A stretch of 43,818 bases of DNA from Oscillospiraceae bacterium. GTDB lineage: Bacteria; Bacillota; Clostridia; Oscillospirales; Oscillospiraceae. How positions within the stretch are numbered: the stretch's first letter is position 1; every line of letters starts with the position of its first letter. Location of the stretch: NCBI GenBank assembly GCA_022800525.1, contig JAAWQM010000022.1, positions 1 to 43,818 on the forward strand. Reading direction: 5' to 3'. Shown one piece after another: positions 2,000 to 39,144 of the stretch. Made by a program: the position numbers and the translations under genes. The notes under the pieces are model-generated. The model was not told where the DNA came from. It worked only from the letters and a program-made list of their open reading frames with translations, and did no database searches.

Positions 2000-2275
2000 A
2001 TGGAACTGGATCGGGAGGAAATCCTGGAGGCGCTGCGGCGCGTGGCGCTCAGCAAGCCCAACGACGCGATCTCCCTGGCCCTCCAGCCCGGCGACGCCCA
2101 TGCGGGCAGCCTGGACCTCTGGGGCGTCAGCGAGTTCAAAATCAACAGCGCAGGCAGCGTGGAGGTCAAATTTCTGGACCGCATAAAGGCCATTTCCCTG
2201 CTGCTGGAATGCGCCGGGGGCGGCGAGGACAGCATGAGCGCCCTGCTGAACGCTCTGGAGGCTGAGGACGGATGA
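2000..2275 (+). CDS. Putative small terminase subunit (TerS-like)
   Basis: A 91-residue acidic protein at the head of the cluster, overlapping the large terminase by 4 bases (ATGA). Known TerS proteins recognise DNA for packaging and form a ring with TerL. Identity rests mostly on position. The C-terminal part (FLDRIKAISLLLE) resembles the helix found at the end of XtmA-type subunits. ATG 2000 was chosen because upstream codons translate the leader hairpin. It is short for the family (usually 130-250 residues) and lacks a clear N-terminal helix-turn-helix, so DNA recognition may be reduced or absent. That would fit non-specific packaging, but this is inference. Confidence 0.55.
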   Translation: MELDREEILEALRRVALSKPNDAISLALQPGDAHAGSLDLWGVSEFKINSAGSVEVKFLDRIKAISLLLECAGGGEDSMSALLNALEAEDG

Positions 2276-3528
2276 AAATAAAACGGTTCTCTCCCAAGCA
2301 GAAACGCGTTATGTGCTGGTGGGGCCCCAAATCCGCAGACCGGCACCGGGACGCCATCATCTGCGACGGAGCCGTGCGCAGCGGCAAGACCCTGTGCATG
2401 GGCCTCAGCTTCGTCTGCTGGGCAATGGCCTGCTTCCGGGAACAGCAATTCGCCTTCTGCGGGAAAAGCGTCGTCTCACTGCGGCGCAATCTCCTCCAGG
2501 AGCTCACGCCGGTGCTCAAGGAGCTGGGGTTCCAGTGCAGAGAGAAGCGGAGCGAAAACCTGCTGCTGATCCGCCGGGGAAGCCGGGAAAACCGGTTCTA
2601 CCTCATGGGCGGAAAGGACGAGGGCAGCGCGGCCTTTATCCAGGGCGTTACCCTGGCGGGCGTTCTCCTGGACGAGGCCGCGCTGATGCCCAGGTCCTTT
2701 GTGGAGCAGGCCATCGCGCGGTGCAGCGTACAGGGTTCCAGGCTCTGGTTCAACTGCAACCCCGAAGGCCCGCAGCACTGGTTTTACCAGGAGTGGATTC
2801 TGAAGGCTGAGCAGCGAAACGCCCTGTACCTCCATTTTACCATGGAGGACAACCCCTCCCTCTCCCCCCGTATCCGGCAGCGGTACCGGTCCAGTTACAG
2901 CGGCGCTTTCTACAGGCGGTTCGTTCTGGGGGAATGGACTGCCGCCAAGGGGCTGATTTACGACTTCTTTGACCCGGCGCGGGACGCGCGGCCCGCGCCC
3001 GGGGGCGAGCTGGAGGAGTATGTCATCTCCGTGGACTACGGCACCGCGAATCCCTGTTCCTTCGGCCTCTGGGGACTCAGCGGAGGCGTGTGGTACCGGG
3101 TGCAGGAATATTACTACGCATCCAGGCGTACCGGCGTCCAGCTGACGGACCAGGAGTATGTGGCGGAGCTGACGCGGCTGGCCAGCCAGCACCAGATCCG
3201 CTGCGTGGTGGCGGACCCCTCCGCCGCCAGCTTTATCACTGCCCTGCGGCAGGCGGGCTACCGCGTCATCAAAGCCAACAACGACGTTCTCTCCGGCATC
3301 CGCATCACCGCCGACCTTTTGAAACGTGGGCGCATCGTGATATGCGAGAGCTGCGGGGACTGTCTGAGGGAAATGGCGCTGTACCGCTGGAGCGAGGAAA
3401 CCAACGGGCGGGACGCCCCCCACAAGGACAACGATCACGCGATGGACGACATGCGGTATTTCGCTGTCACCGTGGCGGACACGAAGGAGAGTGAGGGGGT
3501 CTTCTGCTCGGTGGCGCGGAGGGGGTAA
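2272..3528 (+). CDS. Phage terminase large subunit (ATPase-nuclease)
   Basis: A 418-residue DNA-packaging motor of the PBSX/SPP1 type. The N-terminal ATPase has Walker A GAVRSGKT (33-40), Walker B VLLDEA (131-136) and the coupling motif FNCNPEGP (160-167). The C-terminal RNase-H-like nuclease keeps its acidic residues in VISVDYG (Asp255), VVADP (Asp315) and HAMDDMRY (Asp392/393). Length is normal and nothing catalytic is missing, so the motor is probably functional. It acts at the portal vertex of the procapsid. Translation is coupled to the small subunit. A palindromic insert separates it from the portal gene. Confidence 0.95.
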   Translation: MKIKRFSPKQKRVMCWWGPKSADRHRDAIICDGAVRSGKTLCMGLSFVCWAMACFREQQFAFCGKSVVSLRRNLLQELTPVLKELGFQCREKRSENLLLIRRGSRENRFYLMGGKDEGSAAFIQGVTLAGVLLDEAALMPRSFVEQAIARCSVQGSRLWFNCNPEGPQHWFYQEWILKAEQRNALYLHFTMEDNPSLSPRIRQRYRSSYSGAFYRRFVLGEWTAAKGLIYDFFDPARDARPAPGGELEEYVISVDYGTANPCSFGLWGLSGGVWYRVQEYYYASRRTGVQLTDQEYVAELTRLASQHQIRCVVADPSAASFITALRQAGYRVIKANNDVLSGIRITADLLKRGRIVICESCGDCLREMALYRWSEETNGRDAPHKDNDHAMDDMRYFAVTVADTKESEGVFCSVARRG

Positions 3529-3566
3529 CACCCCCGCAGAGCAACCGGGTGGTTTCGATGAAGTGA

Positions 3567-3599
3567 GGGCCGCAATTGGCCTGCGGCCAATTGCGGCCC
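3567..3599. repeat. Perfect 15-bp palindrome between terminase and portal genes
   Basis: Arms 3567-3581 and 3585-3599 pair perfectly around a 3-base loop (TGC). There is no T-run, so it is not a normal terminator. A second weaker hairpin (GCAGTG..CACTGC) follows. The GGGCCG..CAATTGG composition resembles the repeat block at 1020-1070, suggesting a dispersed repeat inserted inside the operon. Confidence 0.7.
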
Positions 3600-3640
3600 G
3601 GCAGTGGCGCGAAGCGGCACTGCACGGAAGGAGTTGAGTG

Positions 3641-4840
3641 ATGAAATTATTCAGAAGAAAACATGAGCCGGTCCTTGAGGCCGCCGCCACGCCCCAGATC
3701 AGGCGCGGCGACAGCGCCCCCTTCGGGATGCTGGGCGGCTACACCGCTTTGCAGCAGGGCGAGGTGCGGCTGTACCGCGCAATCCGGGAAAGCGTCCCCC
3801 TGGTGGACGCCTGCATCTACAAGATTATCCGGCTGTGCGGCGGCGTTTCCGCGCGGTGCGGGGACCCGGAGGCCGAGCGCGGGCTGCGCCTGTTCCTGGA
3901 GCGTGTGGACGTGGGCCGGGGACAGAGAGGCATCAACGCGTTTCTGGATCAGTACCTGGACTCCATGCTGGTCTGCGGACAGGCAGTGGGCGAAATTGTC
4001 CCCACCGCCGGCAACCGCGACATTGCCGCCGTACTGTGCGGACGGGTGGAGGACGTGCAGGTCCGGGAGGGCGACGGGCCGCTGGATTTCCAACTGTGCG
4101 GCCAGGACGCCTATGGGCAGATCTCTCCCCTGCCCCAGCAGCAGCTGCTGCTGTTCACACCGTTCAATCCGGAGACGGGATCTCCCTACGGCGTATCTCT
4201 GCTGCGCTCCATGCCGTTTCTGACGGAGCTGCTCAGCAAAATTTATTACGCCATCGGTGTGAACTGGGAGAGAATGGGCAACGTGCGTTTTGCCGTGGTC
4301 TACAAGCCGGGGGACGGCGAGTGGGAACGGGGCATGGCCCAGGAGAGAAGCCGGCAGCTGGCCAGCGAATGGAGCCGGGCCATGGAGCGGACCAGGAGCG
4401 GCGACGTGCGGGATTTCGTCGCCGTGGGAGACGTTGAGATCAAGGTCATCGGCGCGGACAACCAGATCCTGGACAGCTCCGTGCCCATCCGGCAGATTCT
4501 GGAACAACTGGTGAGCAAGACGGGAATCCCGCCGTTTATGCTGGGGCTGAGCTGGTCCAGCACGGAGCGGATGAGCACCCAGCAGGCCGACCTGCTGACC
4601 ACCGAGATGACCGCCATCCGGCGGTCGCTGACTCCGGCCATTGAGCGGATCTGCCAGCTGTGGCTGCGGATGCACGGGTATGGATGCGATTTCCAGGTGG
4701 TCTGGGACGATATCAACCTGCAGGATCTTCTGGAGGAGGCCAAGGCGGACTGGTACAGGGAGCAGACCAGAAAGCTGGCGCTGGAAAACGACGCGGCCGA
4801 ACGGGCCGCCGGGAGAGCGCGCGCCCATGACAACGAGTAG
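3641..4840 (+). CDS. Phage portal protein
   Basis: A 399-residue portal protein, the twelve-fold ring through which DNA enters the capsid and to which the tail attaches. Recognition rests on family-typical segments: the early basic region, the phrase LLLFTPFNPETGSPYGVSLL, a long helix with VNWERMGNVRFAVVYK, and VSKTGIPPFMLGLSW, which precedes the long C-terminal helices. Position directly after TerL agrees. ATG 3641 lies 7 bases after GGAAGGAG; an in-frame GTG one codon upstream is less well placed. The reading frame is intact and of normal length for compact portals. Confidence 0.9.
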   Translation: MKLFRRKHEPVLEAAATPQIRRGDSAPFGMLGGYTALQQGEVRLYRAIRESVPLVDACIYKIIRLCGGVSARCGDPEAERGLRLFLERVDVGRGQRGINAFLDQYLDSMLVCGQAVGEIVPTAGNRDIAAVLCGRVEDVQVREGDGPLDFQLCGQDAYGQISPLPQQQLLLFTPFNPETGSPYGVSLLRSMPFLTELLSKIYYAIGVNWERMGNVRFAVVYKPGDGEWERGMAQERSRQLASEWSRAMERTRSGDVRDFVAVGDVEIKVIGADNQILDSSVPIRQILEQLVSKTGIPPFMLGLSWSSTERMSTQQADLLTTEMTAIRRSLTPAIERICQLWLRMHGYGCDFQVVWDDINLQDLLEEAKADWYREQTRKLALENDAAERAAGRARAHDNE

Positions 4841-4907
4841 GTTCCACGCGGGAGCCGAGGCCCCGCACAATACAGATTTGACGCTTTATGCGGAAAGGAG
4901 CAGTCCA

Positions 4908-5828
4908 TTGGAGATCAGAAAAGAACCGGGCAGTGTGTCCCGGCACAGTGTGGCGCGGGAGGATATGATCCTCATTAACCGCCTGAGTAAGACGGAGCTG
5001 ACGCCCGATCAGATTTATACCTTCGCTATCCGGTTGTGCGACAATGAGATCGACCGGGATTGGGAGCGGTTCGACGAGGAGGCGCTGGAAGCGCTGAGCC
5101 GCTTGTTTGTGGGGAAGAGCGGCATCTTCGACCACAACTGGTCCGCCGAGGGCCAGACCGCCAGACTTTACAAAACCGAGGTCTGCCGGGAAAGCGGCAA
5201 GACCGGCGCGGGCGACGGCTGCCAGTATCTGAAGGGCTATGCCTATATGCTGCGCAGCGAGAAGAATGAAACGCTGATTAATGAGATCGAGGCGGGCATC
5301 AAGAAGGAGGTCAGCGTCGGGTGCAGCGTGGCGGGCCGCAGCTGCTCCATCTGCGGGAAGGACCGCTGCGAGCACCAGGGCGGCAAGCGGTATGGCGGCA
5401 AGCTGTGCTTCTTTACGCTGAAGGAGCCTACGGACGCCTATGAGTGGAGCTTCGTGGCGGTTCCGGCGCAGAGAAAGGCGGGGGTCATCAAGAGCTTCGC
5501 GTATGAGCCGGGCGGCGATCTGAAGCGCGCGCTGTCCGCGCACCCGGACTGCCTGCGGCAGCTGGAGGCTTTGGAGAAGGAGGCGCAGCTGGGCAGGAGC
5601 TATATGGAGAACCTGCGCAGGGAGCTGGTACGGCTGGCGGGGCTGACGGAAGAGACCATGGATCTCAAAATCTTTGCCGCCATGTCCGAGAAAATGAACG
5701 AGGGCGAGCTGCTGGAGATGACCCGCGTGTACCAGCGGCGCATGGACGCGATGTATCCCCCCGCCCCCCAGTTAAAGGCCAGGGGCCCTGTGGCCTGCGA
5801 GGATGAAGACAGGGCATTTCTGATTTGA
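4908..5828 (+). CDS. Prohead protease (XkdF/HK97-protease-like)
   Basis: A 306-residue capsid maturation protease, probably with a scaffolding C-terminus. The segments FDHNW (His76), EVSVGCSV (Ser136) and YEWSFVAVPAQRKAGV (Glu179) are consistent with the His-Ser-acid centre of herpes-type prohead proteases. A Cys cluster (CSICGKDRCEH) near 146-156 is common in this group. The C-terminal third is helical and charged, as expected of a scaffold. I chose TTG 4908, 7 bases after GGAAAGGAG. An upstream ATG at 4827 would add 27 residues of low-quality sequence and overlap the portal gene. The next gene is the decoration protein. Confidence 0.8.
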   Translation: MEIRKEPGSVSRHSVAREDMILINRLSKTELTPDQIYTFAIRLCDNEIDRDWERFDEEALEALSRLFVGKSGIFDHNWSAEGQTARLYKTEVCRESGKTGAGDGCQYLKGYAYMLRSEKNETLINEIEAGIKKEVSVGCSVAGRSCSICGKDRCEHQGGKRYGGKLCFFTLKEPTDAYEWSFVAVPAQRKAGVIKSFAYEPGGDLKRALSAHPDCLRQLEALEKEAQLGRSYMENLRRELVRLAGLTEETMDLKIFAAMSEKMNEGELLEMTRVYQRRMDAMYPPAPQLKARGPVACEDEDRAFLI

Positions 5829-5845
5829 TGAAGGAGGATTTTTGT

Positions 5846-6187
5846 ATGAGCGTTTCTTTTGAAGGCGTGGGCCAGGTCTGCGCTACGTTTCTGGGCGGCA
5901 ATCTGGCTGAGGGCCAGGTTGTCAAGATGAAGAGCGGCGGTACAGTGGCCGCATGCAGCGCGGACGATCCGTTCTGCGGCGTGGCGCTGTGCTGCAAGGA
6001 CGACGCCTGCACGGTGCAAGTGAGCGGATTTGTGACCGTCGGGTACAGCGGGGCCGCTCCTGCGGTGGGCTGGTGTTCCCTGGCCGCAGATGGGAAGGGC
6101 GGCGTAAAGACCGCCGCCAGCGGCGGGACGCCCTGCCTGGTTGCGGATATGGATACCACGGCGAAAACCGTGACGATCATGCTTTAA
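5846..6187 (+). CDS. Putative capsid decoration/stabilisation protein
   Basis: A 113-residue beta-rich protein with repeating Gly/Val patterns (GQVVKMKSGGTV, VSGFVTVGYSG), placed between protease and major capsid, where phages often encode the protein that caps or trimerises on the capsid surface. It resembles DUF2190-type proteins in pattern. ATG 5846 follows AAGGAGG at 8 bases. It is unusually rich in cysteine for such a protein (eight residues), and I cannot say whether these bind metal. Function is inferred from size, composition and position. Confidence 0.6.
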   Translation: MSVSFEGVGQVCATFLGGNLAEGQVVKMKSGGTVAACSADDPFCGVALCCKDDACTVQVSGFVTVGYSGAAPAVGWCSLAADGKGGVKTAASGGTPCLVADMDTTAKTVTIML

Positions 6188-6202
6188 AGGAGGATATGGA
6201 AT

Positions 6203-7234
6203 ATGTCTTACAGCTACGATAATCTGAGACTGGAGAAGGGGATGTACGGTGAGGCCGGGAAGTCCTTCACGCAGGCGCTGGAGGCCGCCGATCCCAGCGA
6301 GAATTACCGGGGCACCCCCCTGGAGGGGCTGGACGCCTTTCAGCGGCAGCTCAAGCGGTTTGACATCCATGTGAAGGGCAGCCGCTCCGATGTGGTGGAG
6401 AAGTTCTTCCGGACCACGGAGTCGGCGGTGCTGTTCCCTGAGTTCGTGTCCCGCGTGGTGCGCCAGGGGATGGAGGAGGACAACGTGCTGCCTTCGATCA
6501 CCGCTACCACAACGCAGTTTGACGGGATGGACTACCGTTCGATCTCCTCTGTACCCAGCGAGGACGAAAAGAGCCTGAAGCGCGTGGAGGAGGGAGCTCA
6601 GCTGCCTCAGACCACCGTGCGGACCCAGAGCAATCTGGTGAAGCTCCACAAGAGAGGCCGGATGCTGGTGGCCTCCTATGAGGCGATCCGCTTCCAGCGG
6701 CTGGATTTGTTCTCCATTACGCTGCGGCAGATTGGCAGCCATATTGCCAGAATGCACCTGGAGGACGCGATCAAGGTCATTACTGACGGGGATGGGAACG
6801 ACAATCCCGCAGATGCGTTTGCCGTGGGTACTGCGCCGGTCGGCGGGACCAAGGGGTCGCTGACCTATGAGGCGCTGCTGGATTTCTGGGGGCAGTTCGA
6901 TCCCTACACCATGAACACTATTCTGGTCCCCAACGCGGTGATGCTGGACATGTTGAAAATGAGCGAATTTCAGAATCCCCTGACCGGGCTGAACTTCCAG
7001 GGCACCGGCACGCTTGCGTCGCCTCTGGGCGCGACGCTGCTGCGCACCAGCGCTATGCCTGCGGGCAAGCTGATCGGCCTGGACCGCAACTACGCGCTGG
7101 AGATGGTCAGCGCGGGCGATGTGATGGTTGAGTACGACAAGCTCATTGACCGGCAGGTGGAGCGGGCGGCGATCACCAGCATCTCCGGCTTTGCCAAGCT
7201 GTATACTGACGCAGGGAAAATCCTGACGATTTGA
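6203..7234 (+). CDS. Major capsid protein (HK97 fold, PBSX XkdG-like)
   Basis: A 343-residue major capsid protein that builds the head shell. Recognisable are VVEKFFRTTESAVLFPEFVS near residues 61-80, followed by RVVRQGMEE, and the later P-domain-like region with LIGLDRNYALEMVSAGDVMV. Similar proteins are the capsids of clostridial contractile-tailed phages and PBSX. A strong AAAGGAGG precedes ATG 6203. The frame is complete. No separate scaffold gene is present, so the protease or an N-terminal delta domain probably serves. Expected product: the particle head. Confidence 0.85.
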   Translation: MSYSYDNLRLEKGMYGEAGKSFTQALEAADPSENYRGTPLEGLDAFQRQLKRFDIHVKGSRSDVVEKFFRTTESAVLFPEFVSRVVRQGMEEDNVLPSITATTTQFDGMDYRSISSVPSEDEKSLKRVEEGAQLPQTTVRTQSNLVKLHKRGRMLVASYEAIRFQRLDLFSITLRQIGSHIARMHLEDAIKVITDGDGNDNPADAFAVGTAPVGGTKGSLTYEALLDFWGQFDPYTMNTILVPNAVMLDMLKMSEFQNPLTGLNFQGTGTLASPLGATLLRTSAMPAGKLIGLDRNYALEMVSAGDVMVEYDKLIDRQVERAAITSISGFAKLYTDAGKILTI

Positions 7235-7246
7235 GGAGGATGCCGG

Positions 7247-7612
7247 ATGTTTGAACAAATTCCGCTTTTGGCCGCTGCTGTTACTCTGCCGACAGACGCG
7301 GAACGGCCCTTGCTGGCGGCTCTGTGTACTGCTGCTGTGGACGACGTCAAACGGCGGCTGCGTCCAGGTCTGACGGCGGAGGACTGCGGCGACGCGTTCC
7401 TGTGCGCAGCGGCCATGATGGCTGCCGCAGGGCTGATGTCCTGCCGCAGCTGCGGGGATGTGGAGCAGCTTTCCGCAGGAGATGTGAGCCTGCGCGTCAG
7501 CAGCAGCGGCGATGGCTGCGAGGCGGCCGCGTCCATGCGGCGTCATGCGGCCGAGATGATGGAGCCCTACTGGGCGGACGACAGCTTCGCCTTCTCGGAG
7601 GTAAAGGGATGA
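7247..7612 (+). CDS. Head-tail connector protein (gp6-like)
   Basis: A 121-residue helical protein directly after the capsid gene, the usual place of the adaptor that docks on the portal ring. The helical segments AALCTAAVDDVKRRL and AFLCAAAMMAAAGL are typical of gp6/gp15-type connectors. The 3' end overlaps the next gene by 4 bases (ATGA). AGGAGG lies upstream of ATG 7247. No catalytic motif is visible. The assignment is by position, size and helical pattern. Confidence 0.65.
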   Translation: MFEQIPLLAAAVTLPTDAERPLLAALCTAAVDDVKRRLRPGLTAEDCGDAFLCAAAMMAAAGLMSCRSCGDVEQLSAGDVSLRVSSSGDGCEAAASMRRHAAEMMEPYWADDSFAFSEVKG

Positions 7613-7941
7613 AGGCCCGCCTGGAGCGGGCCATGGAGCGATATGGGCAGACGGTGACGCTGGCTTCAAGAGACGGCGATGAGGCACAGAAAATCAGGGC
7701 GTTTTTGCAGCCAGTCCTGAAAACACAGGCGGAACCGCCAGTGGCGGTGACGCCGCTGGGACCGGTCAGGGAACACCGATGGCTTTACATCGGGCGGGCT
7801 GATCTGGAGGTCAGGACCGGAGACCGGATGTCCTGTGGCGGGGTAAAGCTGGTTGTGCAGGAGACGCAGCCTGTTTACTGGCAGGACGAGGCGTTTTACT
7901 GGCGGGCGATCCTGCGGCGGGAAAAGGAGGCTGCGCTGTGA
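7609..7941 (+). CDS. Head-tail joining/neck protein (XkdH-like)
   Basis: A 110-residue protein, predicted largely beta, with GQTVTLASRDGDEAQKIRAF near the start and WLYIGRADLEVRTGDRM in the middle. Stopper or neck proteins such as PBSX XkdH and SPP1 gp16 have this size and position and contain a similar small barrel that plugs the portal channel. Its ATG overlaps the upstream stop, and its TGA overlaps the next GTG start, so translation is coupled on both sides. Confidence 0.6.
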   Translation: MKARLERAMERYGQTVTLASRDGDEAQKIRAFLQPVLKTQAEPPVAVTPLGPVREHRWLYIGRADLEVRTGDRMSCGGVKLVVQETQPVYWQDEAFYWRAILRREKEAAL

Positions 7942-8441
7942 ATGGACTGGAACAGGTAAAGACAGCCCTTGCCGGCGCACTGAAAAACGCCGGGATTGCC
8001 GCGCACACCGCCTACTCGCCAGGATGGGCCAAGTCCTATCACGAGCCGGTGGTAGCGATAGGGCTGCGTACCGGAGAGAGCAGGGGCGGAGCTATGGGCA
8101 GCTATATGGGCCAGCGGGTCAATCCGGATACACTGGACTGCCAGGAGGTCTATGGGATGCGGCTTGAGCTGGTGCTTTCCCTGGACATCTACTGTCCGCC
8201 CGGTGAGGGAGCGGGACGGTGCGACTACGTTCTGGAGGCACTGCATCAAGTGATGCTGAATGGACTCCCCTCCGGACTGCGGCCCATAGAGCTGAAATGG
8301 GAAGAAACCGTCTGGGACGGGGATACCTCTATGTTCCTGCGGCGGGGAAGTCTCGCCTGCGGCGCGTTTTTCGTCGCGGAGACATCGGAAGAACAGCTTG
8401 AGCTGGCAGATTTTATTTTGAAAGGTGTTTTGACCAAATGA
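7938..8441 (+). CDS. Tail terminator/completion protein
   Basis: A 167-residue protein between the neck and sheath genes, where PBSX-like phages encode the tail terminator that caps the tube and joins it to the head. The start is GTG 7938, set by AAAAGGAGG at 7922-7930 and a 4-base GTGA overlap; the nearby ATG at 7942 is out of frame. The 3' end overlaps the sheath gene by 4 bases. No diagnostic motif; the call depends on order and size. Confidence 0.55.
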   Translation: MNGLEQVKTALAGALKNAGIAAHTAYSPGWAKSYHEPVVAIGLRTGESRGGAMGSYMGQRVNPDTLDCQEVYGMRLELVLSLDIYCPPGEGAGRCDYVLEALHQVMLNGLPSGLRPIELKWEETVWDGDTSMFLRRGSLACGAFFVAETSEEQLELADFILKGVLTK

Positions 8442-9496
8442 ACAGTATTATCCACGAGCGTCCGGGGGTTTATTCCTCCTACGACGCATCCGCCTCCCTG
8501 CGGGGCGGCAGGGCCGCCCGCGCGATTGGCGCAGTGGCCAAGAGCAAATCCGGGACACCCAATACGCCGGTGACGGTCACCAGCTATGAGATGGGACTGA
8601 GCGTGTTTGGTGAGGACAGCGCCGCATCCCCCGGCATGTCCACGCTACTGAAGCTGCTGTTTATGGGCGGCGCGTCCATGGTTACCGCTGTGGCTGTGGA
8701 CGGCGAGGATTACGCTGGCGCGTTCGCGGCTTTGCAGGGAACGGAAAACGTACAGGTAGTGGTCTGCGACAGCGGTGAACTGGCGGTCCAGCAGGCCCTC
8801 CGGAACAGCCTGGAGAGGGCCTCCACCGCACACCGGGAGAGGATCGCTGTGGTTGGCATGAACGGCGCGTCCACCTCAGAGCTGACGGCGCGGGCCAAGG
8901 AACTCAACAGTGAGCGCATGGTCCTGGTTGGGCCGGACGGGTTGGACAGCGCCGGGAAAAGGCTGTCCGGTGTGTTTGCCGCTGCGGCTGTGGCGGCAGC
9001 AATCGCCGTCACCAGGGATCCCGCTATCCCGCTGAACGGCTCAACGCTGTACGGACTGGGCGGCGTCAGCGAGCAATACAGCGACAATGACATTGATCTG
9101 CTGGTGCGGGGCGGCGTGACGCCTCTGGAAGCGGTCGGCGGCGTGGTTTCTCCCGTGCGCGGCATCACCACACGCACCTCTACCAGCGGAGCGGATGACT
9201 CTACCTGGCGGGAACTGACTACGATCCTGATCGTAGACGATGTGATACCCTCGATCCGCCAGAGCCTGCGCTCCCGCTTCAGTCAGGCAAAAAACACAGT
9301 ACAGACCAGGGGGGCCATCCGCTCCCAGGTCATCGTGGAGCTGGAAAGCAAGTTGCGTGCCGAGATCATTGACGGATACGGCGATGTATCCGTATCCGTG
9401 TGTGATGATGATCCTACTGTCTGCCTGGTTGAGTTCAGCTTTTCCGTGGCACATGGTCTGAATCAGATCTATCTCACCGCCCATATCACGATTTAA
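8438..9496 (+). CDS. Contractile tail sheath protein (XkdK-like)
   Basis: A 352-residue sheath subunit; polymerised, it contracts and drives the tube through the target envelope. The N-terminus IIHERPGVYSSYDA is the family hallmark, and the C-terminal domain (SFSVAHGLNQIYLTAHI) is the part that interlocks neighbouring subunits. The known PBSX sheath is about 100 residues longer, so an outer decorating domain is missing while the core is intact. The gene overlaps the terminator gene by 4 bases and is followed by the tube gene. It establishes that the particle is myovirus-like. Confidence 0.92.
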   Translation: MNSIIHERPGVYSSYDASASLRGGRAARAIGAVAKSKSGTPNTPVTVTSYEMGLSVFGEDSAASPGMSTLLKLLFMGGASMVTAVAVDGEDYAGAFAALQGTENVQVVVCDSGELAVQQALRNSLERASTAHRERIAVVGMNGASTSELTARAKELNSERMVLVGPDGLDSAGKRLSGVFAAAAVAAAIAVTRDPAIPLNGSTLYGLGGVSEQYSDNDIDLLVRGGVTPLEAVGGVVSPVRGITTRTSTSGADDSTWRELTTILIVDDVIPSIRQSLRSRFSQAKNTVQTRGAIRSQVIVELESKLRAEIIDGYGDVSVSVCDDDPTVCLVEFSFSVAHGLNQIYLTAHITI

Positions 9497-9510
9497 GGAG
9501 GTTGTGACCT

Positions 9511-9900
9511 ATGGAAGTAACAGGATTTCCTACCAGTTGTGACATTTATCTGGAGCTGGAGGGCCGGAAGGTCGCGGTTGTGCAGAGCTACACCGCTAAG
9601 GCTACCAAGAGCAGCCAGGTGGTGGAGGCATTCGGCGAGAGCGAGCCGGTGGCAACAATCAACGGACAGAACAAGTATGTGCTGGAGCTGACCCGGCTCT
9701 ATGCTACCGATGACGCCATCAGTGACGGCATCGACTTCTTCTCTCTGGCAAACTTCTCACTGGTCATCTGCAAGCCGGACCGAAAGGTCATCTACAGCGG
9801 CTGCCAGTGGAGCGCTATCCAGGAGGAAGGCAAGGTCGGCTCCATGGTGGCTGAGAAGGTGACGCTGGTGGCCACCAGCCGAATTGAGGTGGCCGCCTGA
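9511..9900 (+). CDS. Tail tube protein (XkdM-like)
   Basis: A 129-residue tube protein, the hollow inner cylinder through which DNA passes. MEVTGFPTSCDIYLELEGRK and the central LTRLYATDDAISDGIDF match the XkdM pattern. It lies immediately after the sheath gene, with AAGGAGGTTG upstream of its ATG. Its stop shares one base with the following start. In ordinary phages a pair of tail-assembly chaperones and a long tape-measure gene come next. Here neither is seen. Confidence 0.88.
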   Translation: MEVTGFPTSCDIYLELEGRKVAVVQSYTAKATKSSQVVEAFGESEPVATINGQNKYVLELTRLYATDDAISDGIDFFSLANFSLVICKPDRKVIYSGCQWSAIQEEGKVGSMVAEKVTLVATSRIEVAA

Positions 9901-10718
9901 TGGACAGGGAGAAGCTGATTCAGGTCAGTTTCCAAATTCCGCCCAGTGCGCTGGACAGTCTCTCCAGACTGGCGGAGCAAATGCGTATGCTGGCAGAAGC
10001 CGCCCATGAGCAAACGTTTTCCAGCGGCACAGCTAAAATGGAGCGCGGAGTAAGCGAGTCCTTTGACCCGGTACGATTCCATTCGATGCAGGAAAGCGCG
10101 GATTCTCAGTCCCAGGCCGTCAGGGCAACAGTTGCGGAGATAGAGGCTGCGAAAGCGGCCTTCGCTCCGGTCTCCCGGGCAGGGAATGCGGAAGCGGTAT
10201 CCGCAGAGGTTCGGAAAGAGATTCAGAACGCGGAAAGCGCTGGAAGTACGCCGCACGATTATCCCGAGGATGCGGCGGCGGGTACATCTGGTGTTCTATG
10301 GCGCGCTCTGCCGGAGGAGCGGGACATCCCGCTCCCTCCGGCAGAGCCAACACCTGAACGTGGTCTATTGGACGGTATCCCCGCTGTCCATGCAGAAGCA
10401 GAAACGGCTGTACCCCGTGCGTCAGAAGTGGGACGGGATATAGGGCGGCAGGTTCCCGATGCGGAGCGGACGGAGACTGGCGCAGAGGAGCGGGCGCTTG
10501 CGCCAGATGCCGTTCAGGGTGAGTTGACTGGCGGTGTAGAACTGCCAGTGGGCGCGGGTGTGGTTGTGCAGACCCAGCCGGCGATGCCGCAGAGCCGATG
10601 GAGCGGTGTGACGGAGGAGCTGGTGATCCCAGGTCCCGCTCCGCTGACGGCGGAGGCTGTTTCGCTGGCTTTCGAGCGGGACGGGCGGCGGTATGACAAC
10701 GGATTCCCGCTGTATTGA
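9900..10718 (+). CDS. 272-residue protein in the tape-measure position, function unknown
   Basis: I do not recognise this family. The first third (about 1-110) is helical and probably coiled-coil (LDSLSRLAEQMRMLAEAA, AVRATVAEIEAAKAAF). The middle (about 115-245) is Pro/Glu/Ala-rich and looks disordered. A short C-terminal motif reads AFERDGRRYDNGFPLY. It sits exactly where chaperone and tape measure genes belong and is translationally coupled to the tube gene. If it is the tape measure, the usual rule of about 1.5 angstrom per residue implies a tail of at most about 40 nm. The R. capsulatus gene transfer agent also has a very short tape measure. It could instead be a chaperone. Confidence 0.5.
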   Translation: MDREKLIQVSFQIPPSALDSLSRLAEQMRMLAEAAHEQTFSSGTAKMERGVSESFDPVRFHSMQESADSQSQAVRATVAEIEAAKAAFAPVSRAGNAEAVSAEVRKEIQNAESAGSTPHDYPEDAAAGTSGVLWRALPEERDIPLPPAEPTPERGLLDGIPAVHAEAETAVPRASEVGRDIGRQVPDAERTETGAEERALAPDAVQGELTGGVELPVGAGVVVQTQPAMPQSRWSGVTEELVIPGPAPLTAEAVSLAFERDGRRYDNGFPLY

Positions 10719-10732
10719 CGGAGGTGAACACG

Positions 10733-11308
10733 ATGCTGCTGACACCAATGCGTTACAAGGACTATATCTGGCCTTACAATCCGGCAACCTACTCTATCGC
10801 CTACGAGCGGCAGATTGCGGTACACAAGGTCCCATTCGGGCACTACTGTATGCAGGATCTGGGCCTGGGCTGCCGGGTCATGCGGGGTCAGGGGGAGTTT
10901 TCCGGTGAGGGCGCCTATGACGAGTTCAAGAAGCTTGCGTCCATCTTTTACGACAACGGACCAGGGCTGCTCATTCATCCGCTGTGGCAGATCTCCAACG
11001 CCTATTTCACCGCCTTGAAGCTGGAGCAGGAACCTCTGCCGGATTATGTGCGCTATAGCTTTGAGTTCCGGGAACGGTACGATGAGTACAACGACAGCCT
11101 GACCTCGTTGGGCATGGCAAACAGCGGCAGCTCCGGCCAGGATGTGAGTGCGGCCCCGTCAAAAACCACCCATTCCGTGGTCAGCGGAGATACCCTGTGG
11201 GGCATCTCCAACCGGTACAATGTAAAGCTGGAGGACCTGCTGAAGGTCAATCCGGGCATCAAAAACCCCAATCTGATCCGCGTCGGAGAGGTGGTGGTGA
11301 TTCCGTGA
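10733..11308 (+). CDS. LysM-domain tail/baseplate protein (XkdP-like)
   Basis: A 191-residue protein. The N-terminal part (about 1-125) is the XkdP/gp53-type domain that links tube to hub. The C-terminal 45 residues form one LysM domain (SVVSGDTLWGISNRYNVKLE, then a VNPG segment and VGEVVVIP), which in tails binds or locates peptidoglycan or grips the hub. ATG 10733 was chosen, 6 bases after GGAGGTG. Its stop overlaps the next start. Such a protein normally follows the tape measure directly, which supports the view that the 272-residue gene upstream replaces it. Confidence 0.85.
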   Translation: MLLTPMRYKDYIWPYNPATYSIAYERQIAVHKVPFGHYCMQDLGLGCRVMRGQGEFSGEGAYDEFKKLASIFYDNGPGLLIHPLWQISNAYFTALKLEQEPLPDYVRYSFEFRERYDEYNDSLTSLGMANSGSSGQDVSAAPSKTTHSVVSGDTLWGISNRYNVKLEDLLKVNPGIKNPNLIRVGEVVVIP

Positions 11309-12243
11309 TGACCATCCGTCTTGAGACCTACGATGGCGGGCTCTATCAACTGCCGGTCCTGCTGCGGTGGGACTTGACCTATACGGGAAACGTTCCCTGC
11401 GACAGCATGAGCGTTACATGCCTGTATGATGAAAGTATGTCGGAGGTACTGCCCAAAGCGACCCGGTTTACCGCCTGTCAGGATGGTGAGGTTATGCTGC
11501 AGGGAGTGGTTGACGCCTATGAAATCTCCCTGTCCCAGCAGGGGCTTCTGGCGACGGTAGAGGGCCGGGGGATGGCCGCGCTGCTGCTGGACAACGAGTC
11601 AGAGGCGCTCTCCTATGAGCGGGCGGTGCTGGAGGAGATTTTGGAGAACCATGTGTCCCCCTATGGCATTCAGACAGACTTTCAGCAGAGCATTTCAGGA
11701 AACAACTACGTTGTCTCCTCCGGCTCCAGCCAGTGGAAGGCTCTGCAAGGTTTTACCAACCGGTTCGGCGGGTTTGATCCCCACTTCACCAGAGAAGGCG
11801 CGCTGGTCGTCCAGCCGCTTTGGGGCAGCGGGCGGGAGCTGCGCGTAGACGGCAGCACTCCGCTGCTGTCCCTGCGCAAGCGGGAACAGCGGTATGGCGT
11901 GATCTCCGAAATGCTGATCCAGGATAAGGTTCAGGGCATCACTCTCTCGGTACCGAATGAGGAATTCGTACAAACCGGCGGACAGCGGCGGCATGTATTG
12001 TACATGCCGCGGAGTACCGCCAACAGCCGCCGCTATACCGGGGAATACCAGATTGCGCAGTCCGCTCTGGAACAGCTTGAGATCACGCTGGAGCTGCCTT
12101 TTGCCTTCGCGGCCTCTCCTGGGGACCGCGTGGGGCTGGCGCTGGACCGGCTGAGGCTGTCTGGAAGCTATGATGTCGTAGCTTCCAGAAGCAGGATGGA
12201 TGGAGACGGGGAGCGGACGGAAGTGACATTAAGCAGGAGGTAA
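11308..12243 (+). CDS. Baseplate hub protein (XkdQ / late control gpD-like)
   Basis: A 311-residue hub protein, the trimeric piece at the tail tip that holds the spike. Its segments RLETYDGGLYQLPVLLRWD, CDSMSVTCLYDE, GFTNRFGGFDP and AFAASPGDRVGLALDRL follow the gpD/XkdQ pattern. The start ATG 11308 overlaps the stop of the LysM gene. It has normal length. No lytic domain is fused to it, so cell-wall penetration must come from elsewhere or may not be needed. Confidence 0.8.
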   Translation: MTIRLETYDGGLYQLPVLLRWDLTYTGNVPCDSMSVTCLYDESMSEVLPKATRFTACQDGEVMLQGVVDAYEISLSQQGLLATVEGRGMAALLLDNESEALSYERAVLEEILENHVSPYGIQTDFQQSISGNNYVVSSGSSQWKALQGFTNRFGGFDPHFTREGALVVQPLWGSGRELRVDGSTPLLSLRKREQRYGVISEMLIQDKVQGITLSVPNEEFVQTGGQRRHVLYMPRSTANSRRYTGEYQIAQSALEQLEITLELPFAFAASPGDRVGLALDRLRLSGSYDVVASRSRMDGDGERTEVTLSRR

Positions 12244-12248
12244 GGGAA

Positions 12249-12749
12249 ATGTGGCTATCAAAATCCATCGCGCTGCGCCAGAGCGCGGCGCGGGAGGGCG
12301 CTGCCGCTGACATGGGCACAACGACAATCGGCGGAGGCAGCGCCTCAGTGATGACCCGCGGTGAACAGCGGGATCTGTCTGTCTTTTCACCATCAGGAGT
12401 GATTTGGCAGCCCAAGGCCGGGGACACAGTGTTGGTAATCAAAGGCGGCGCGGGCGGCCAGGAACAGTGCATCATAGCGGCGGATACCGCCGGGGCCGCG
12501 CCGGAAGACCTTGTGCCAGGGGAGCTGTATCTTCATTCCAGCAGAGATACCTTTATCTTCCTGCGCGCCGACGGCAGCATTGCCGTCAAGGGAAATCTAT
12601 CCGCCGAGGGGGACGGAACGATCAAGGGCAGCATCAATCTGACAGGCGACGTGGAGCTGACAGGGGCGGTGACAGTCAACGGAACGCTCAGCGTCAACGG
12701 AAACCTGATTATAAACGGACAGCCCTACCGCCCCTGTTCGTGCGTTTGA
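12249..12749 (+). CDS. Baseplate spike protein (gpV-like)
   Basis: A 166-residue puncturing-tip protein. An OB-fold-like part (VFSPSGVIWQPKAGDTVLVI) precedes a repetitive beta-helix of short strands (SINLTGDVELTGAVTVNGTL, then SVNGNLIINGQ), typical of trimeric P2 gpV-type spikes. It ends PYRPCSCV: two cysteines at the very tip, where known spikes often hold an iron ion through an HxH motif. The Cys pair might do similar work, which is speculative. It lies between hub and gp25 genes, as expected. Confidence 0.8.
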   Translation: MWLSKSIALRQSAAREGAAADMGTTTIGGGSASVMTRGEQRDLSVFSPSGVIWQPKAGDTVLVIKGGAGGQEQCIIAADTAGAAPEDLVPGELYLHSSRDTFIFLRADGSIAVKGNLSAEGDGTIKGSINLTGDVELTGAVTVNGTLSVNGNLIINGQPYRPCSCV

Positions 12750-12768
12750 TATAGGAGGATGAAACCAT

Positions 12769-13113
12769 ATGGAGCCAAGATTGAAAAACGGCGACTATAT
12801 CCCCGACGGGCTGGGGGGCGTAGTGCGCTGCGAAGGGGCGGAAGCCTTGCTGGAGCGGGTTCTCTTCCGGCTGACCGCCCGAAGAGGCGGACTTTCCTTT
12901 CTGCCCCGGCTGGGCAGCAGGCTGTATCTGCTGTCCAGGGAGCCTGCCGCTCAGCGGCTTTCCGCTGCCCGGCAGTATGCGGCGGAGGCGCTGGCGGAGG
13001 AGCCCGTCCGTGTGACGGATGTGGAGCTTGCCGCCCTGGGGGATGGACAGGTACAACTGACAGTATGGCTGGACTATCAGGGAACGGAGCTGTCCATGTC
13101 CATGGCAGTTTAG
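12769..13113 (+). CDS. Baseplate wedge protein, gp25/XkdS-like
   Basis: A 114-residue gp25-type protein that primes sheath assembly at the baseplate. Visible are the GVVRCEGAEALLERVLFRLT segment, FLPRLGSRLYLL and the ending EPVRVTDVELAALGD. Known gp25 proteins have an EPR core; here EEPVRVTDVE fits that position. AGGAGG at 12753-12758 precedes ATG 12769. It stops with TAG 17 bases before the J gene. Confidence 0.78.
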   Translation: MEPRLKNGDYIPDGLGGVVRCEGAEALLERVLFRLTARRGGLSFLPRLGSRLYLLSREPAAQRLSAARQYAAEALAEEPVRVTDVELAALGDGQVQLTVWLDYQGTELSMSMAV

Positions 13114-13129
13114 CCGGAGGGAGTACAAT

Positions 13130-14191
13130 ATGGAAAAAACAATTGATTCAATTTATTCGGAAATGCTGGCCGTATTTGGTGAAATCAGCGGGTACCTGCC
13201 CAGCAGCTCATGCGATTTGGCGGCCCGCCTTTACGCGGCGGCGGCGCAGATCCAAGGTCTGTATTTTCAGGCGCAGTGGCTGCTGGATCAGAGCTTTCCG
13301 CAAACAGCCGCCGGGGAATACCTGGACCGCCACGCCGAGCTGCGCGGCATCAGCCGGAGCATCGCCACCTGCGCGACAGGGCGGCTTCGCTTTGGGGTAT
13401 CTACCGCAGTAAGCGCAGATTTGGAAGTGAGGTCCGGCACGGTATGTATGACGAAGGACGGTGTGCGCTTCGCTACGACGGACGACGCCGTATTGGAAGC
13501 CGGATCGCTGTATGTTGATGTTCCTGCTATGGCCTTGGAACCGGGAAGGCAGGGCAACGCCGCTGTCAACACCGTCACCATCATGGCCGCCATGCCAGTA
13601 GGCATCAAGGCCTGCACCAACCCGGAGGCGTTCAGCGGCGGCGAAGACGCGGAGAATGACGAGGGGCTGCGACGCCGCCTGCTGGACAGCTACCGCCGCC
13701 TGCCCAACGGGGCCAATGCGGCATACTACGAGCAGGCCGCCATGTCCTTCACCGGCGTAGCGGCAGCCGTGGCGGTAAGGCACCCCAGAGGCGTCGGGTC
13801 GGTAGACCTCTATATCGCTACTGACGCGGGCATCCCTGATACGGCGCTGCTGTCGGAGATAAACGAGTACTTGCAGGAAAAGCGGGAAATTTCCGTGGAC
13901 CTGTGGGTGCTGACTCCCACAATAAAGCCAGTGACGATTCAGGCCGCGATCCAGCCTGCAAGCGGATACAGCTTTGAGACCGCTCGGGCAGATGCGGACG
14001 CGGCCCTGCGGGCGGCATTCACCGGAGCCCTGTTAGGCAAGGAAGTCACACTGGCCTTCCTGGGCAATCTTCTTTATGATCTGGACAGCGTACAGAACTA
14101 TCATTTCACCTCGCCCTCTGCGGACATACTGGCAAATCCCACCGTGCTGCCTTACCTTGGGAACGTGTCGATCACCCAGATGGAGGCGTAG
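13130..14191 (+). CDS. Baseplate J-like protein (XkdT)
   Basis: A 353-residue wedge protein of the baseplate J family. The N-terminal region contains AAGEYLDRHAELRGISR, then ATGRLRFGVST and VDVPAMALEPGRQGNAAVNT. The middle GGEDAENDEGLRRRLLDSYR is a strong family signature, and ANAAYYEQAAMSFTGVAAA follows. The protein bridges gp25 and fibre attachment in normal tails. It is complete, with GGAGGG before ATG 13130 and TAG at 14189-14191, one base before the next start codon. Confidence 0.93.
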   Translation: MEKTIDSIYSEMLAVFGEISGYLPSSSCDLAARLYAAAAQIQGLYFQAQWLLDQSFPQTAAGEYLDRHAELRGISRSIATCATGRLRFGVSTAVSADLEVRSGTVCMTKDGVRFATTDDAVLEAGSLYVDVPAMALEPGRQGNAAVNTVTIMAAMPVGIKACTNPEAFSGGEDAENDEGLRRRLLDSYRRLPNGANAAYYEQAAMSFTGVAAAVAVRHPRGVGSVDLYIATDAGIPDTALLSEINEYLQEKREISVDLWVLTPTIKPVTIQAAIQPASGYSFETARADADAALRAAFTGALLGKEVTLAFLGNLLYDLDSVQNYHFTSPSADILANPTVLPYLGNVSITQMEA

Positions 14192-14192
14192 C

Positions 14193-14759
14193 ATGGGATA
14201 CAGTGAACATCTGGTAAATCTGCTGCGGCCGCTGGGCATATACGATCTCAAGACAGGAAGCCTCAGCCGCAGCGAGCTGGACGCTCTGGGGCATGAGCTT
14301 GATGCCTTGAGCAGCCATCTGGACCACGTGGAGCAGGAGAGCGCCCTTGCCACCGCGGAAGATGAAGGGCTGGACAGGTGGGAGTCGCTGTTTGCCCGGA
14401 CTCCGGTCCGATACACCACCGAGCTGCGCCGGCAGGCGATTGCCGCCCTGCTGCGCATCAGCGGAGACAGCTTTACGCTCACGGACATCAACAACACGAT
14501 CTCCGGCTGCGGCATCAAAGCCGTGGTCCAGGAGACCGGCCAATTCGGGTACGTCCGTATCATCTTTCCCGATGTGGCCGGTGTTCCTGATGGCTTCGAA
14601 CAGATTCAGGAGATTATTCTTGATATCATCCCCTGCCATCTGGACGTAGAGTTTTTCTTCCGCTATCTAACCTGGGAGGAATGCGAGGCTCACCAGTACA
14701 CCTGGTCAATTATCCACGCACGTGCGTATACCTGGCATGGCTTTGAATTAGCCGTCTAA
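14193..14759 (+). CDS. Terminal baseplate protein (XkdU/YmfQ-like)
   Basis: A 188-residue homologue-like product of XkdU, the protein closing the wedge and usually carrying the tail-fibre interface. The phrases LVNLLRPLGIYDL, RTPVRYTTELRRQAIAALLR and EIILDIIPCHLDVEFFFRYL support this. It is the last gene: instead of fibres, holin and endolysin, a bidirectional terminator follows 34 bases on. How the particle would recognise a cell or leave one is therefore not encoded here. Confidence 0.8.
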   Translation: MGYSEHLVNLLRPLGIYDLKTGSLSRSELDALGHELDALSSHLDHVEQESALATAEDEGLDRWESLFARTPVRYTTELRRQAIAALLRISGDSFTLTDINNTISGCGIKAVVQETGQFGYVRIIFPDVAGVPDGFEQIQEIILDIIPCHLDVEFFFRYLTWEECEAHQYTWSIIHARAYTWHGFELAV

Positions 14760-14792: not shown

Positions 14793-14831
14793 AAAAAGCT
14801 GGAGCAGGCGTTCAGCCTGCCCCAGCTTTTC
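14793..14831. terminator. Bidirectional terminator between phage-like and recG operons
   Basis: The inverted repeat AAAAGCTGG..GCAGGC / GCCTGC..CCAGCTTTT, with A-run on the left and T-run on the right, serves both strands. It overlaps the last codons of the small minus-strand gene. Confidence 0.75.
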
Positions 14832-38915: not shown

Positions 38916-39144
38916 AAAAAACGCCCCAAGCCAACCGGCTCAGGGCGAACAAAGTTGTCCGTGGTTCCACCTGAATTCGGGCCTTCTGGCCCGCACTCTT
39001 TGTCCATAACGGGGACAGCCGGCGGGGCATTGCCTCCCCGCGGCTCCGGGACGCCTTCCTCTCCGCGCGGTCCGAGGACTTGCACCAACCGTCCCTTCTC
39101 TGATGACCGGCCCGGAAAATACTTTTTCCCTTCAAAGCCTGTTG
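38916..39144 (-). promoter_or_regulatory. T-box riboswitch of glyS
   Basis: On the minus strand the leader contains AGGTGGAACCACGG (38960-38973), the T-box sequence that pairs with the tRNA acceptor end. A long stem I region lies upstream (about 39010-39110), and an intrinsic terminator (CGCCCTGAGCC / GGCTTGGGGCG then TTTTTT, 38916-38947) lies downstream. Uncharged tRNA-Gly would stabilise the antiterminator and switch glyS on. The specifier is presumed to be a Gly codon (a GGC lies near 39056), but I could not fold stem I to prove it. Confidence 0.9.

Follow-up and report, generated by a model that had tools for sequence, protein, structure and literature searches.

Gene transfer agents (GTAs) are described as particles formed from tailed-phage-derived proteins that hold mostly random host DNA and deliver it to other cells, with a head too small for their own genome to be fully packaged and with that genome fixed in the host chromosome, mostly vertically inherited and co-diversifying with the host (PMC9662315). 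RcGTA and the other recognised GTAs, whose hosts are Alphaproteobacteria and spirochaetes, have small head-tail clusters, a short small terminase (TerS) and vertical inheritance, with tails that are non-contractile or, in the parts of these sources available to us, of unstated type (PMC9662315, PMC6854486). In Gram-positive bacteria, a 2026 study counts only two GTA-like systems, PBSX of Bacillus subtilis and FpGTA of Faecalibacterium (PMC12946183). PBSX is host-borne, packages 13.4 kb host fragments evenly and acts as a tailocin; FpGTA, from the neighbouring gut family Ruminococcaceae, has a single operon of ~10 kb that carries its large terminase (TerL), portal, head and capsid genes but no replication genes, with FpGTA I placed at 2536737-2546346 of CP030777; it is described as podovirus-like, a tail was not observed, and its lysis and fibre genes form a second operon (PMC12946183). 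GTA-like packaging was also found in Oscillospiraceae, for which the portions of that study available here report no operon: an Onthomonas (Oscillospiraceae) MAG with such packaging was searched, and a strong operon candidate is named only in one Faecalibacterium MAG (PMC12946183). Among the matches listed in our searches of the open-access literature on GTAs, PBSX and prophages in these bacteria, only this paper was directly relevant.

Here we analyze a gene cluster from an Oscillospiraceae bacterium, carried on a window of 43,818 nucleotides (the whole stretch of DNA analyzed; contig JAAWQM010000022.1). We propose, with a probability of roughly 0.74, that it encodes a GTA-like particle that belongs to the host, is inherited vertically and carries a contractile mini-tail. 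By description the cluster is like the recognised GTAs in the three respects named above, and it differs from them in its contractile tail set; like FpGTA, it unites terminase, portal, head and capsid genes without replication genes, but it has a full contractile tail set and neither lysis nor fibre genes beside it. A contractile mini-tail was not met in the GTA descriptions available from PMC9662315 and PMC6854486, and within the open-access literature searched, a contractile GTA-like lineage appears to be unpublished.

Gene content of the cluster

A sequence-only reading of the window had described a plus-strand packaging-and-tail cluster in phage order with open, overlapping frames, and this description was borne out. 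Eighteen intact plus-strand ORFs run from the small terminase gene to the last baseplate gene at 2000-14759, totalling 12606 bases within a 12760-base span, and several neighbours overlap by 1-4 bases (2272/2275, 7609/7612, 7938/7941, 8438/8441, 9900 and 10715/10718). At the gene level, the encoded proteins are marked as derived from tailed phages by their families, which include those of terminase, portal and capsid as well as of sheath and baseplate.

The first gene (2000..2275) encodes a TerS of 91 aa, of the GTA type, meaning a small terminase without the N-terminal DNA-binding domain (PMC6854486); the TerS of a lytic Faecalibacterium phage has 188 aa (PMC13432834). TerS proteins of relatives are 84-124 aa as called, and 43 of 55 match PF03592 (Terminase_2) at E<=0.1. 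In six of the ten scanned in detail, the match begins at profile position 57-72 and ends at 127-128 of 141, and for 37 of the 55 the open frame could not accommodate 45 further residues. The window's own TerS gave no PF03592 match, the frame from an upstream start at 1871 had no match to any Pfam family either, and a TerS model compared against the PDB returned nothing under E 0.001. As read from these sequences, the TerS of the cluster corresponds solely to the C-terminal portion of Terminase_2, a feature of GTAs, and by analogy with the general description in PMC6854486 the missing part would be the DNA-binding domain. The adjacent TerL gene (2272..3528) encodes an ATPase and nuclease that matches PF03237, phrog_2 and the PBSX family TIGR01547 (163.8 bits against a cut-off of 105). 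Its R36 S37 G38 K39, D134 E135, D255, D315, D388 and D392, which we take to be the catalytic residues and whose presence had been noted earlier, show at least 97% conservation across 61 sequences.

The head genes begin with the portal gene (3638..4840; phrog_30703, E 2e-167). The product of the following gene (4827..5828, alternative start 4965) belongs to a family with no assigned function (phrog_16951) and is a probable head maturation protease with a helical, scaffold-like C-terminal part: H103 and S163 are invariant in 41 sequences, and the sole Foldseek match under E 0.001 was the weakly similar Epstein-Barr virus protease (4.8e-4, TM-score 0.21-0.29), followed by the HCMV protease (0.1). 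Next come a small decoration- or scaffold-like head protein (5828..6187; phrog_4588, E 8e-27) and the major capsid protein (6203..7234; PF25209; phrog_3922, E 1e-112); Phage_Mu_F had no match in the window's own genome. By position, two products lacking family matches, whose place is conserved in relatives, are putative head-tail connectors (7247..7612 and 7609..7941), and a third (7938..8441; phrog_25177, no function assigned) is a putative connector or tail terminator.

The tail genes start with a contractile sheath (8438..9496; PF04984, E 8e-11; PF17482; phrog_279), directly followed by what is, by position, the tail tube (9511..9900; phrog_27038, E 2e-61, no function assigned). The tape-measure slot (9900..10718) holds a short protein of 272 aa with the C-terminus RDGRRYDNGFPLY. 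PBSX has a contractile tail that is long, with a long tape measure, whereas the slot ORFs here are far shorter, at 102-294 aa across the 50 loci that yielded one (two of these, L049 and L067, look wrong-frame, and four loci gave none). Of 61 loci, 44 show a strict C-terminal slot motif, for which shuffled frames would give 0.8 matches, and the window's protein carries a variant outside the strict pattern. The remaining genes encode a LysM/DNA_circ_N-like tail protein (10715..11308; PF01476, PF07157), a baseplate hub (11308..12243; phrog_177, E 1.5e-21), a baseplate spike-like protein named from weak baseplate matches and position (12249..12749; phrog_25991, no function assigned), a gp25-like sheath initiator or baseplate wedge (12769..13113; phrog_180, with PF07409 and PF10934 both below cut-off), a Baseplate J-like protein (13130..14191; PF04865, E 4e-48) and, as the final gene, a Mu Gp48-like baseplate protein (14193..14759; PF10076, E 5.5e-11).

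How far the cluster deserves its earlier label of PBSX-like depends on the trait considered. The TerL family, the contractile tail and the tail gene order agree with it, but TerL was the only one of ten cluster proteins tested to match a PBSX-named family, the slot is short, and the cluster further differs from PBSX in its order-wide single-copy inheritance. A scan of the 350 bases preceding TerS in 61 loci found no LexA-like boxes (0 to 0.4 expected), which lends no support to PBSX-style SOS control.

As had been read from the sequence, neither an integrase, a long tape measure, a fibre nor a lysis gene was found beside the cluster in the window, and no immunity or receptor-binding gene was seen there. 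Downstream, the proposed bidirectional terminator ahead of the recG operon stands in part: an inverted repeat with A/T ends (14794..14830; 16 nt, 94% complementary) is present, but a separate terminator scan did not list it. The recG gene itself (15813..17897, minus strand) is a chromosomal neighbour outside the element and lies in the fetched stretch of loci from five genera. An Rfam scan of the window and four loci matched only a T-box far from the cluster. Upstream, the window begins at a contig end and gives a view of 2 kb only, a stretch rich in dispersed repeats when searched against its own genome; relatives with longer upstream sequence have host genes there. The suggestion that lysis is encoded elsewhere found no clear support: some relatives, including one from the window's genus, have an M15 endolysin or holin gene directly downstream of the cluster. 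A CHAP endolysin elsewhere in the window's genome was considered for this role but showed no link to the cluster: its relatives match in 22 of 25 genomes of the genus, some of them cluster-negative, and the type also occurs in relatives without the cluster.

Distribution and inheritance

The cluster portal was found in 110 of 300 family genomes (one match in 108, two partial ones in the other two) and was absent from 190; the congeners G122 and G1028 (95% and 91% complete) lack the cluster. Within the order, which we take to be Oscillospirales, 70 of 394 genomes had it, with one match each, and outside the order none of 373 genomes of the class did (373 by handle numbering). In a like draw of 300, the ordinary portal PF04860, used as a control, matched in 73 genomes, with at least two matches in 16, a few of which are split matches or the GTA portal.

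Sixty loci of the 110 family matches, four congeners among them, were picked by long contigs and genus spread and analyzed with the window, and 20 of the 49 order matches outside the family were fetched. The head-gene tree shares 34 of 57 splits with the rpoB tree (60 genomes; rho 0.486, where the best of 300 permutations reached 0.150), and the tail tree shares 23 of 49 (52 genomes; rho 0.757 against 0.247 in permutations), the rpoB tree omitting G067 (partial gene) and the tail tree eight genomes. Multi-member genera are monophyletic in 14 of 14 cases in the head tree and 12 of 14 in the rpoB tree; at the order level, families f1, f14 and f23 form clades and f26 does not. The head and rpoB trees differ in 23 of 57 splits. 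Conflicts with rpoB that have 0.99 support on both sides fall on G061 and the g74 trio in the head tree and amount to four splits in the tail tree, where they also involve G064/G284 and G104/G258. Inheritance of the cluster is mainly vertical.

The cluster is a fixture of the host chromosome, although its position varies in the window's genus. A flanking gene family is common to 29 of 43 same-genus pairs, and the common families are housekeeping ones; in the window's genus, recG adjoins the cluster in three genomes (the window, G234 and G1034), lies ~114 kb away in G184 and is on a separate contig in five. A search of 81 loci with a working positive control detected no tyrosine recombinase (serine recombinases covered via the 25 commonest flank Pfam families only). 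Of 90 listed flank frames, the scan covered 88.

Frames are open for TerL in 61 of 61 loci, capsid in 61 of 61, portal in 60 of 61 (fetched portals counted as open at a frame of at least 80%) and sheath in 53 of 54; in the family survey, 22 of 112 portal places had stop codons within the matched stretch. Median dN/dS over the 18 genes is 0.15-0.49, from at most 43 same-genus pairs with dS outside 0.05-3 discarded and dS high for many pairs. The cluster genes are under purifying selection. The domestication proposed by the sequence-only reading finds support in single copy number, co-diversification with the host, open frames, these dN/dS values and the lack of any recombinase found alongside.

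Killing particle, satellite or prophage

Sheath genes are absent from 6 of 60 assessable family loci and from 12 of 18 in other families, with head and terminase genes remaining; all genome loci were found through the portal, so that head retention among them partly reflects how they were chosen. A tail-first search of viral contigs, in a collection that favours phage-like contigs, found head genes in 48 of 49 assessable contigs and a sheath without a head in none, the sole headless contig being sheathless as well. These patterns bear on whether the cluster encodes a host-controlled, PBSX-like particle that holds host DNA but serves as a tailocin whose contractile tail punctures competitors. 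Intact sheath, tube and baseplate genes, a PBSX-family TerL and the precedent of PBSX itself, which combines host fragments with tailocin action (PMC12946183), speak for such a particle. Yet a tailocin would lose head and terminase and keep its tail, and the window retains both; that the sheath is lost where the head persists speaks against a mainly killing function. The short slot and the lack of fibre or immunity genes seen beside the cluster also count against this alternative, which we regard as unlikely.

A capsid-forming satellite or helper-dependent element, borrowing tail or lysis functions from resident phages, would fit the lack of adjacent lysis genes in the window, the varying tail content among relatives and the ordinary phage portals present in some of the same genomes (PF04860 had no match in the window's own). 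Most family loci, however, have a full tail set, neither an integrase nor a replication gene was found, and the tree test points to mainly vertical inheritance, which together make this reading very improbable.

An ordinary prophage, or the remnant of a prophage lineage common in these hosts, would account for phage-like genes in phage order, for patchy presence across the family and for an integrase on the same record in two of five long IMG/VR records, but it is already contradicted, and we give it hardly any weight, by the single copy seen in 108 of 110 family and all 70 order genomes, host-congruent trees, open frames under purifying selection, the failure to find a tyrosine recombinase in 81 loci, the lack of the integrase, repressor, replication genes and spread across lineages typical of temperate prophages, and by the viral records themselves. 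Only three of the best 80 of 250 IMG/VR contigs exceed 20 kb. The integrase of the 55 kb record is part of another prophage, which has a TerL, a PF04860 portal, a PF05065 capsid, a 1461-aa tape measure, an amidase and a holin of its own, and that of the 28 kb record lies ~15 kb from the cluster. Of six phage-collection records with a related portal, the two that were opened were both bacterial chromosome around the cluster.

A proposed gene transfer particle

The GTA-like reading that we favour is of a probably domesticated device that would package the bacterium's own DNA, and the cluster is a candidate for the operon behind the GTA-like packaging reported in Oscillospiraceae (PMC12946183). 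Active under some condition, the operon would yield heads of small size and a contractile tail of very short length. As TerS lacks its DNA-recognition part while the motor and nuclease of TerL are intact, random pieces of host chromosome would be loaded, and the His/Ser protease would mature the head. LysM, hub and baseplate parts may then dock the particle on the cell wall, where sheath contraction could open a path for the DNA and permit its delivery. Release would require lysis genes such as those that adjoin the cluster in some relatives, though not in the window.

At even odds, we would extend this proposal to the order: Oscillospirales may share a single GTA lineage that is ancient and has been passed down vertically from a time before the main families split, whose ancestor had a contractile mini-tail and whose descendants repeatedly shed the sheath to become podovirus-like heads, possibly including FpGTA. 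The window's sheath is intact, unlike the podovirus-like FpGTA, and sheathless forms occur in related families. If this is true, the cluster would be a source of this order's short host-DNA fragments in gut viromes. Few GTAs are known, and the cluster offers named, intact genes in strains already in culture; its cultured carriers include Pseudoflavonifractor gallinarum DSM 107456, P. capillosus An827 and Flavonifractor plautii ATCC 29863. As heads stay and tails shrink within the family, what selection keeps, DNA packaging or killing, can be asked directly, and if the cluster moves DNA, common gut bacteria would have an inbuilt means of exchanging genes.

Conservation and inheritance of the cluster

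The eighteen genes at 2000-14759, all on the plus strand, lie on one contig (C58) of a 2.87 Mb genome in 112 contigs. Protein families were matched for TerL, the portal, a phrog_16951 protein, a small head protein and the major capsid protein, by a phrog_25177 member at the connector position and a phrog_27038 member at the tube position, and for sheath, LysM/DNA_circ_N, hub, spike-like, gp25-like, Baseplate_J and Gp48 tail proteins; two connector-position genes, the 272-aa gene in the tape-measure slot and the window's TerS had no family match of their own. The 4827-5828 product is compatible with a head maturation protease, the structural support being weak: its sole structural match under E 0.001 was the Epstein-Barr virus protease (4.8e-4, low TM-score), followed by the cytomegalovirus protease (E 0.1), and H103 and S163 are unchanged across 41 sequences. 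A zinc-site-like set past the conserved serine (C173/C176/C181/H183) is also unchanged in the 41. A perfect 15-nt inverted repeat lies at 3567-3599 between TerL and portal, and in three loci (L061, L075, L379) the same gene set is reordered, with the small head and capsid genes preceding the portal instead of following the protease.

Portal relatives were found in 110 of 300 genomes of the family (83 of 189 of good quality; 50 of 106 genera), which by named records groups with Oscillibacter, Flavonifractor, Pseudoflavonifractor, Lawsonibacter and Intestinimonas. All but two of the carriers (108 of 110) have one match, with two partial matches each in G099 and G209; 19 of 25 genomes of the window's genus have a single match apiece, as do 70 of 394 genomes of the order, spread over six families. 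At class level, all 8 carriers among 391 genomes fall within the order, with no match in the 373 genomes placed outside it by genome-code numbering. The control, the ordinary phage portal family PF04860, matched 73 of 300 genomes, 16 with at least two matches; a few of these come from fragmented hits or from the GTA portal.

The open frames that the sequence-only reading had set against prophage decay recur across the family. Counting as intact one open frame covering at least 80% of the query, TerL, protease and capsid were intact in 61 of 61 family loci and portal in 60 of 61, as were sheath (53/54), tube (58/58), hub (55/55), LysM (57/59), Baseplate_J (53/54) and Gp48 (54/54). For the spike, 15 of 54 frames fell below 80%, and for the slot protein 6 of 12; we read this as length variation. 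Stop codons occurred within the matched stretch at 22 of 112 places in the family portal search, many of them apparently coinciding with the natural frame end. Median dN/dS per gene was 0.15-0.49, lowest for tube and capsid and not near 1; these values are rough because they are Nei-Gojobori estimates with dS often near 1.

Vertical inheritance, which the sequence-only reading had proposed to check, was borne out in the main. Across 60 genomes of 34 genera, trees of rpoB and of TerL, portal, protease and capsid combined had 34 of 57 splits in common (distances correlated by rank at 0.486, against at most 0.150 over 300 permutations), and the 14 genera with at least two members were all monophyletic in the head tree and 12 of 14 in the rpoB tree. 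Tail genes shared 23 of 49 splits with rpoB in 52 genomes (rho 0.757; permutation best 0.247), and head and tail trees shared 33 of 49 (rho 0.798). Conflicts supported at 0.99 on both sides were confined, for head genes, to the placement of genome G061 and a trio of genus g74, where the genus label agrees with the head tree, and, for tail genes, to four splits, including pairs within genus g64 and around genomes G104 and G258. On this evidence the cluster has been passed on mainly vertically, with a few transfers or tree errors possible. In a tree with 20 further loci from five other families, f1 (support 0.36), f14 and f23 (0.79) formed clades and f1 grouped with f2 (0.967); f26 was not a clade.

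Chromosomal position and neighbours

Synteny across relatives held in part. A flanking gene family was common to 29 of 43 same-genus locus pairs versus 179 of 1787 different-genus pairs, some of these families encode lysis functions and may be part of the element itself. A strictly fixed site did not hold: recG, which 9 of 61 loci (five genera) include within the sequence fetched, adjoins the cluster in three genomes of the window's genus, lies ~114 kb off in G184 and is on other contigs in five, and this varying distance argues against one. Positions 1-1200 are dense in dispersed intergenic repeats, with 1-99 found again at 98-99% in four places, some at contig ends, and further stretches repeated many times; such repeats may explain why several congeners' clusters sit near contig ends. 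Between the contig start and TerS, at 1204-1789, are a YoeB toxin (PF06769), not found in the 60 other family loci, and, by eye, a DinJ-like antitoxin. A T-box leader (RF00230) lies at 38938-39144, upstream of what appears by eye to be a glycyl-tRNA-synthetase-like gene.

As with the integrase in the window, tyrosine recombinases were looked for in 81 loci and not found, with XerD and two phage integrases as queries; the XerD query does recover both integrases. Across 88 flanking frames, the 25 commonest of 121 Pfam families were host functions such as RecG, MnmG, histidine kinase and penicillin-binding protein. In IMG/VR, 250 contigs encode portal relatives, three of the best 80 exceeding 20 kb. 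A 28 kb record has an integrase ~15 kb from the cluster; in a 55 kb, Flavonifractor-like record (L410, L411) a separate, complete-looking prophage of siphovirus type is integrated immediately 3' of the cluster. This prophage encodes an integrase, a TerL, a PF04860 portal, a PF05065 capsid, a tape measure of 1461 aa, an amidase and a PF05105 holin of its own. Of six "phage" records with a related portal, two from human faeces were inspected, and both GenBank "Bacteriophage sp." entries (MT835508, MT835769) are bacterial chromosome surrounding the cluster; ribosomal-protein genes were recognised by eye in one, and recG in the other.

An M15 endolysin lies within 1 kb past the cluster in five loci (L034, of the same genus, L038, L041, L053, L078), a PF05105 holin just downstream in five (L040, L045, L068, L074, L079) and a CBM5/12 protein nearby in five; none of the three is near the cluster in the window. 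Against the window's own genome, the M15 protein had a single match, away from the cluster: the phage-type C-terminal domain of an endolysin (L172:9886-10596) that is CHAP-like by eye and sits amid apparently ordinary host genes. This endolysin type has matches in 22 of 25 congeners, strong in three cluster-negative ones.

Head and tail modules

Profile searches recovered TerS, TerL, portal, protease and capsid in every locus, the 61 of the family and the 20 from other families alike. The sheath was recovered in 54 (one a fragment) of the 60 family loci that could be assessed and in 6 of the 18 such loci from other families. Since all 81 loci were located via the portal, tail-only descendants could not appear among them. 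As a tail-first counter-test, the baseplate gene was searched against viral contigs. Relatives are encoded on 103, of which 80 were retained; the upstream sequence reaches 7.5 kb or more in 49, and 48 of these carry head genes and sheath. Sheath without head occurred in 0 of the 49, in a collection that favours phage-like contigs. The remaining contig, L429, has gpJ and gp48 relatives and 10 kb upstream with neither head nor sheath gene. In genus g52 (L062, L063, L085, L086), the head module and tube are retained and sheath and baseplate genes were not found; the contractile tail looks to have been lost there within the family.

No locus having both tube and LysM genes has a long tape measure between them (gap 0-1.9 kb). 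The ORF preceding LysM encodes 102-294 aa in 50 loci, and slot ORFs end in a motif of type RDARRYDGGFxLY. Among family loci, 44 of 61 show the strict pattern at a C-terminus, and among those of other families 1 of 20 (0.8 expected in shuffled frames); the window and L031 have the variant RDGRRYDNGF. Tape measures set ~0.15 nm of tail length per residue, which predicts a tail of about 15-44 nm from slot ORF length.

Packaging and comparison with known gene transfer agents

TerL retains its ATPase and nuclease residues. TerS is short as called (84-124 aa). Since starts were chosen partly by reference to the copy in the window, open-frame length was measured as well, with 37 of 55 frames having insufficient room for 45 extra residues. 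Terminase_2 was matched by 43 of 55 TerS at E<=0.1; six of ten scanned in detail match it, from profile positions 57-72 through 127-128 of 141, and one of the six exceeds the curated cut-off. The window's TerS frame read from 1871 had no Pfam match. PMC6854486 assigns DNA binding in phage TerS to an N-terminal domain that RcGTA TerS lacks, and proposes that its absence makes packaging random.

PMC12946183 reports GTA-like packaging within Oscillospiraceae in Onthomonas, which accounts for 3 of 25 events, and describes the podovirus-like FpGTA of Faecalibacterium; of four MAGs searched, one yielded a strong operon candidate. Our search of literature on GTAs, PBSX and prophages in related Clostridia found no paper describing this contractile cluster. 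Among the six defining features of GTAs listed in PMC9662315, three are found here (phage-derived proteins, vertical inheritance and endogenization, with variable position); the other three concern particles. Taken together, the element is very likely domesticated. Given the short TerS, the conserved TerL and the retained head genes, it likely packages host DNA, and it may plausibly transfer genes.
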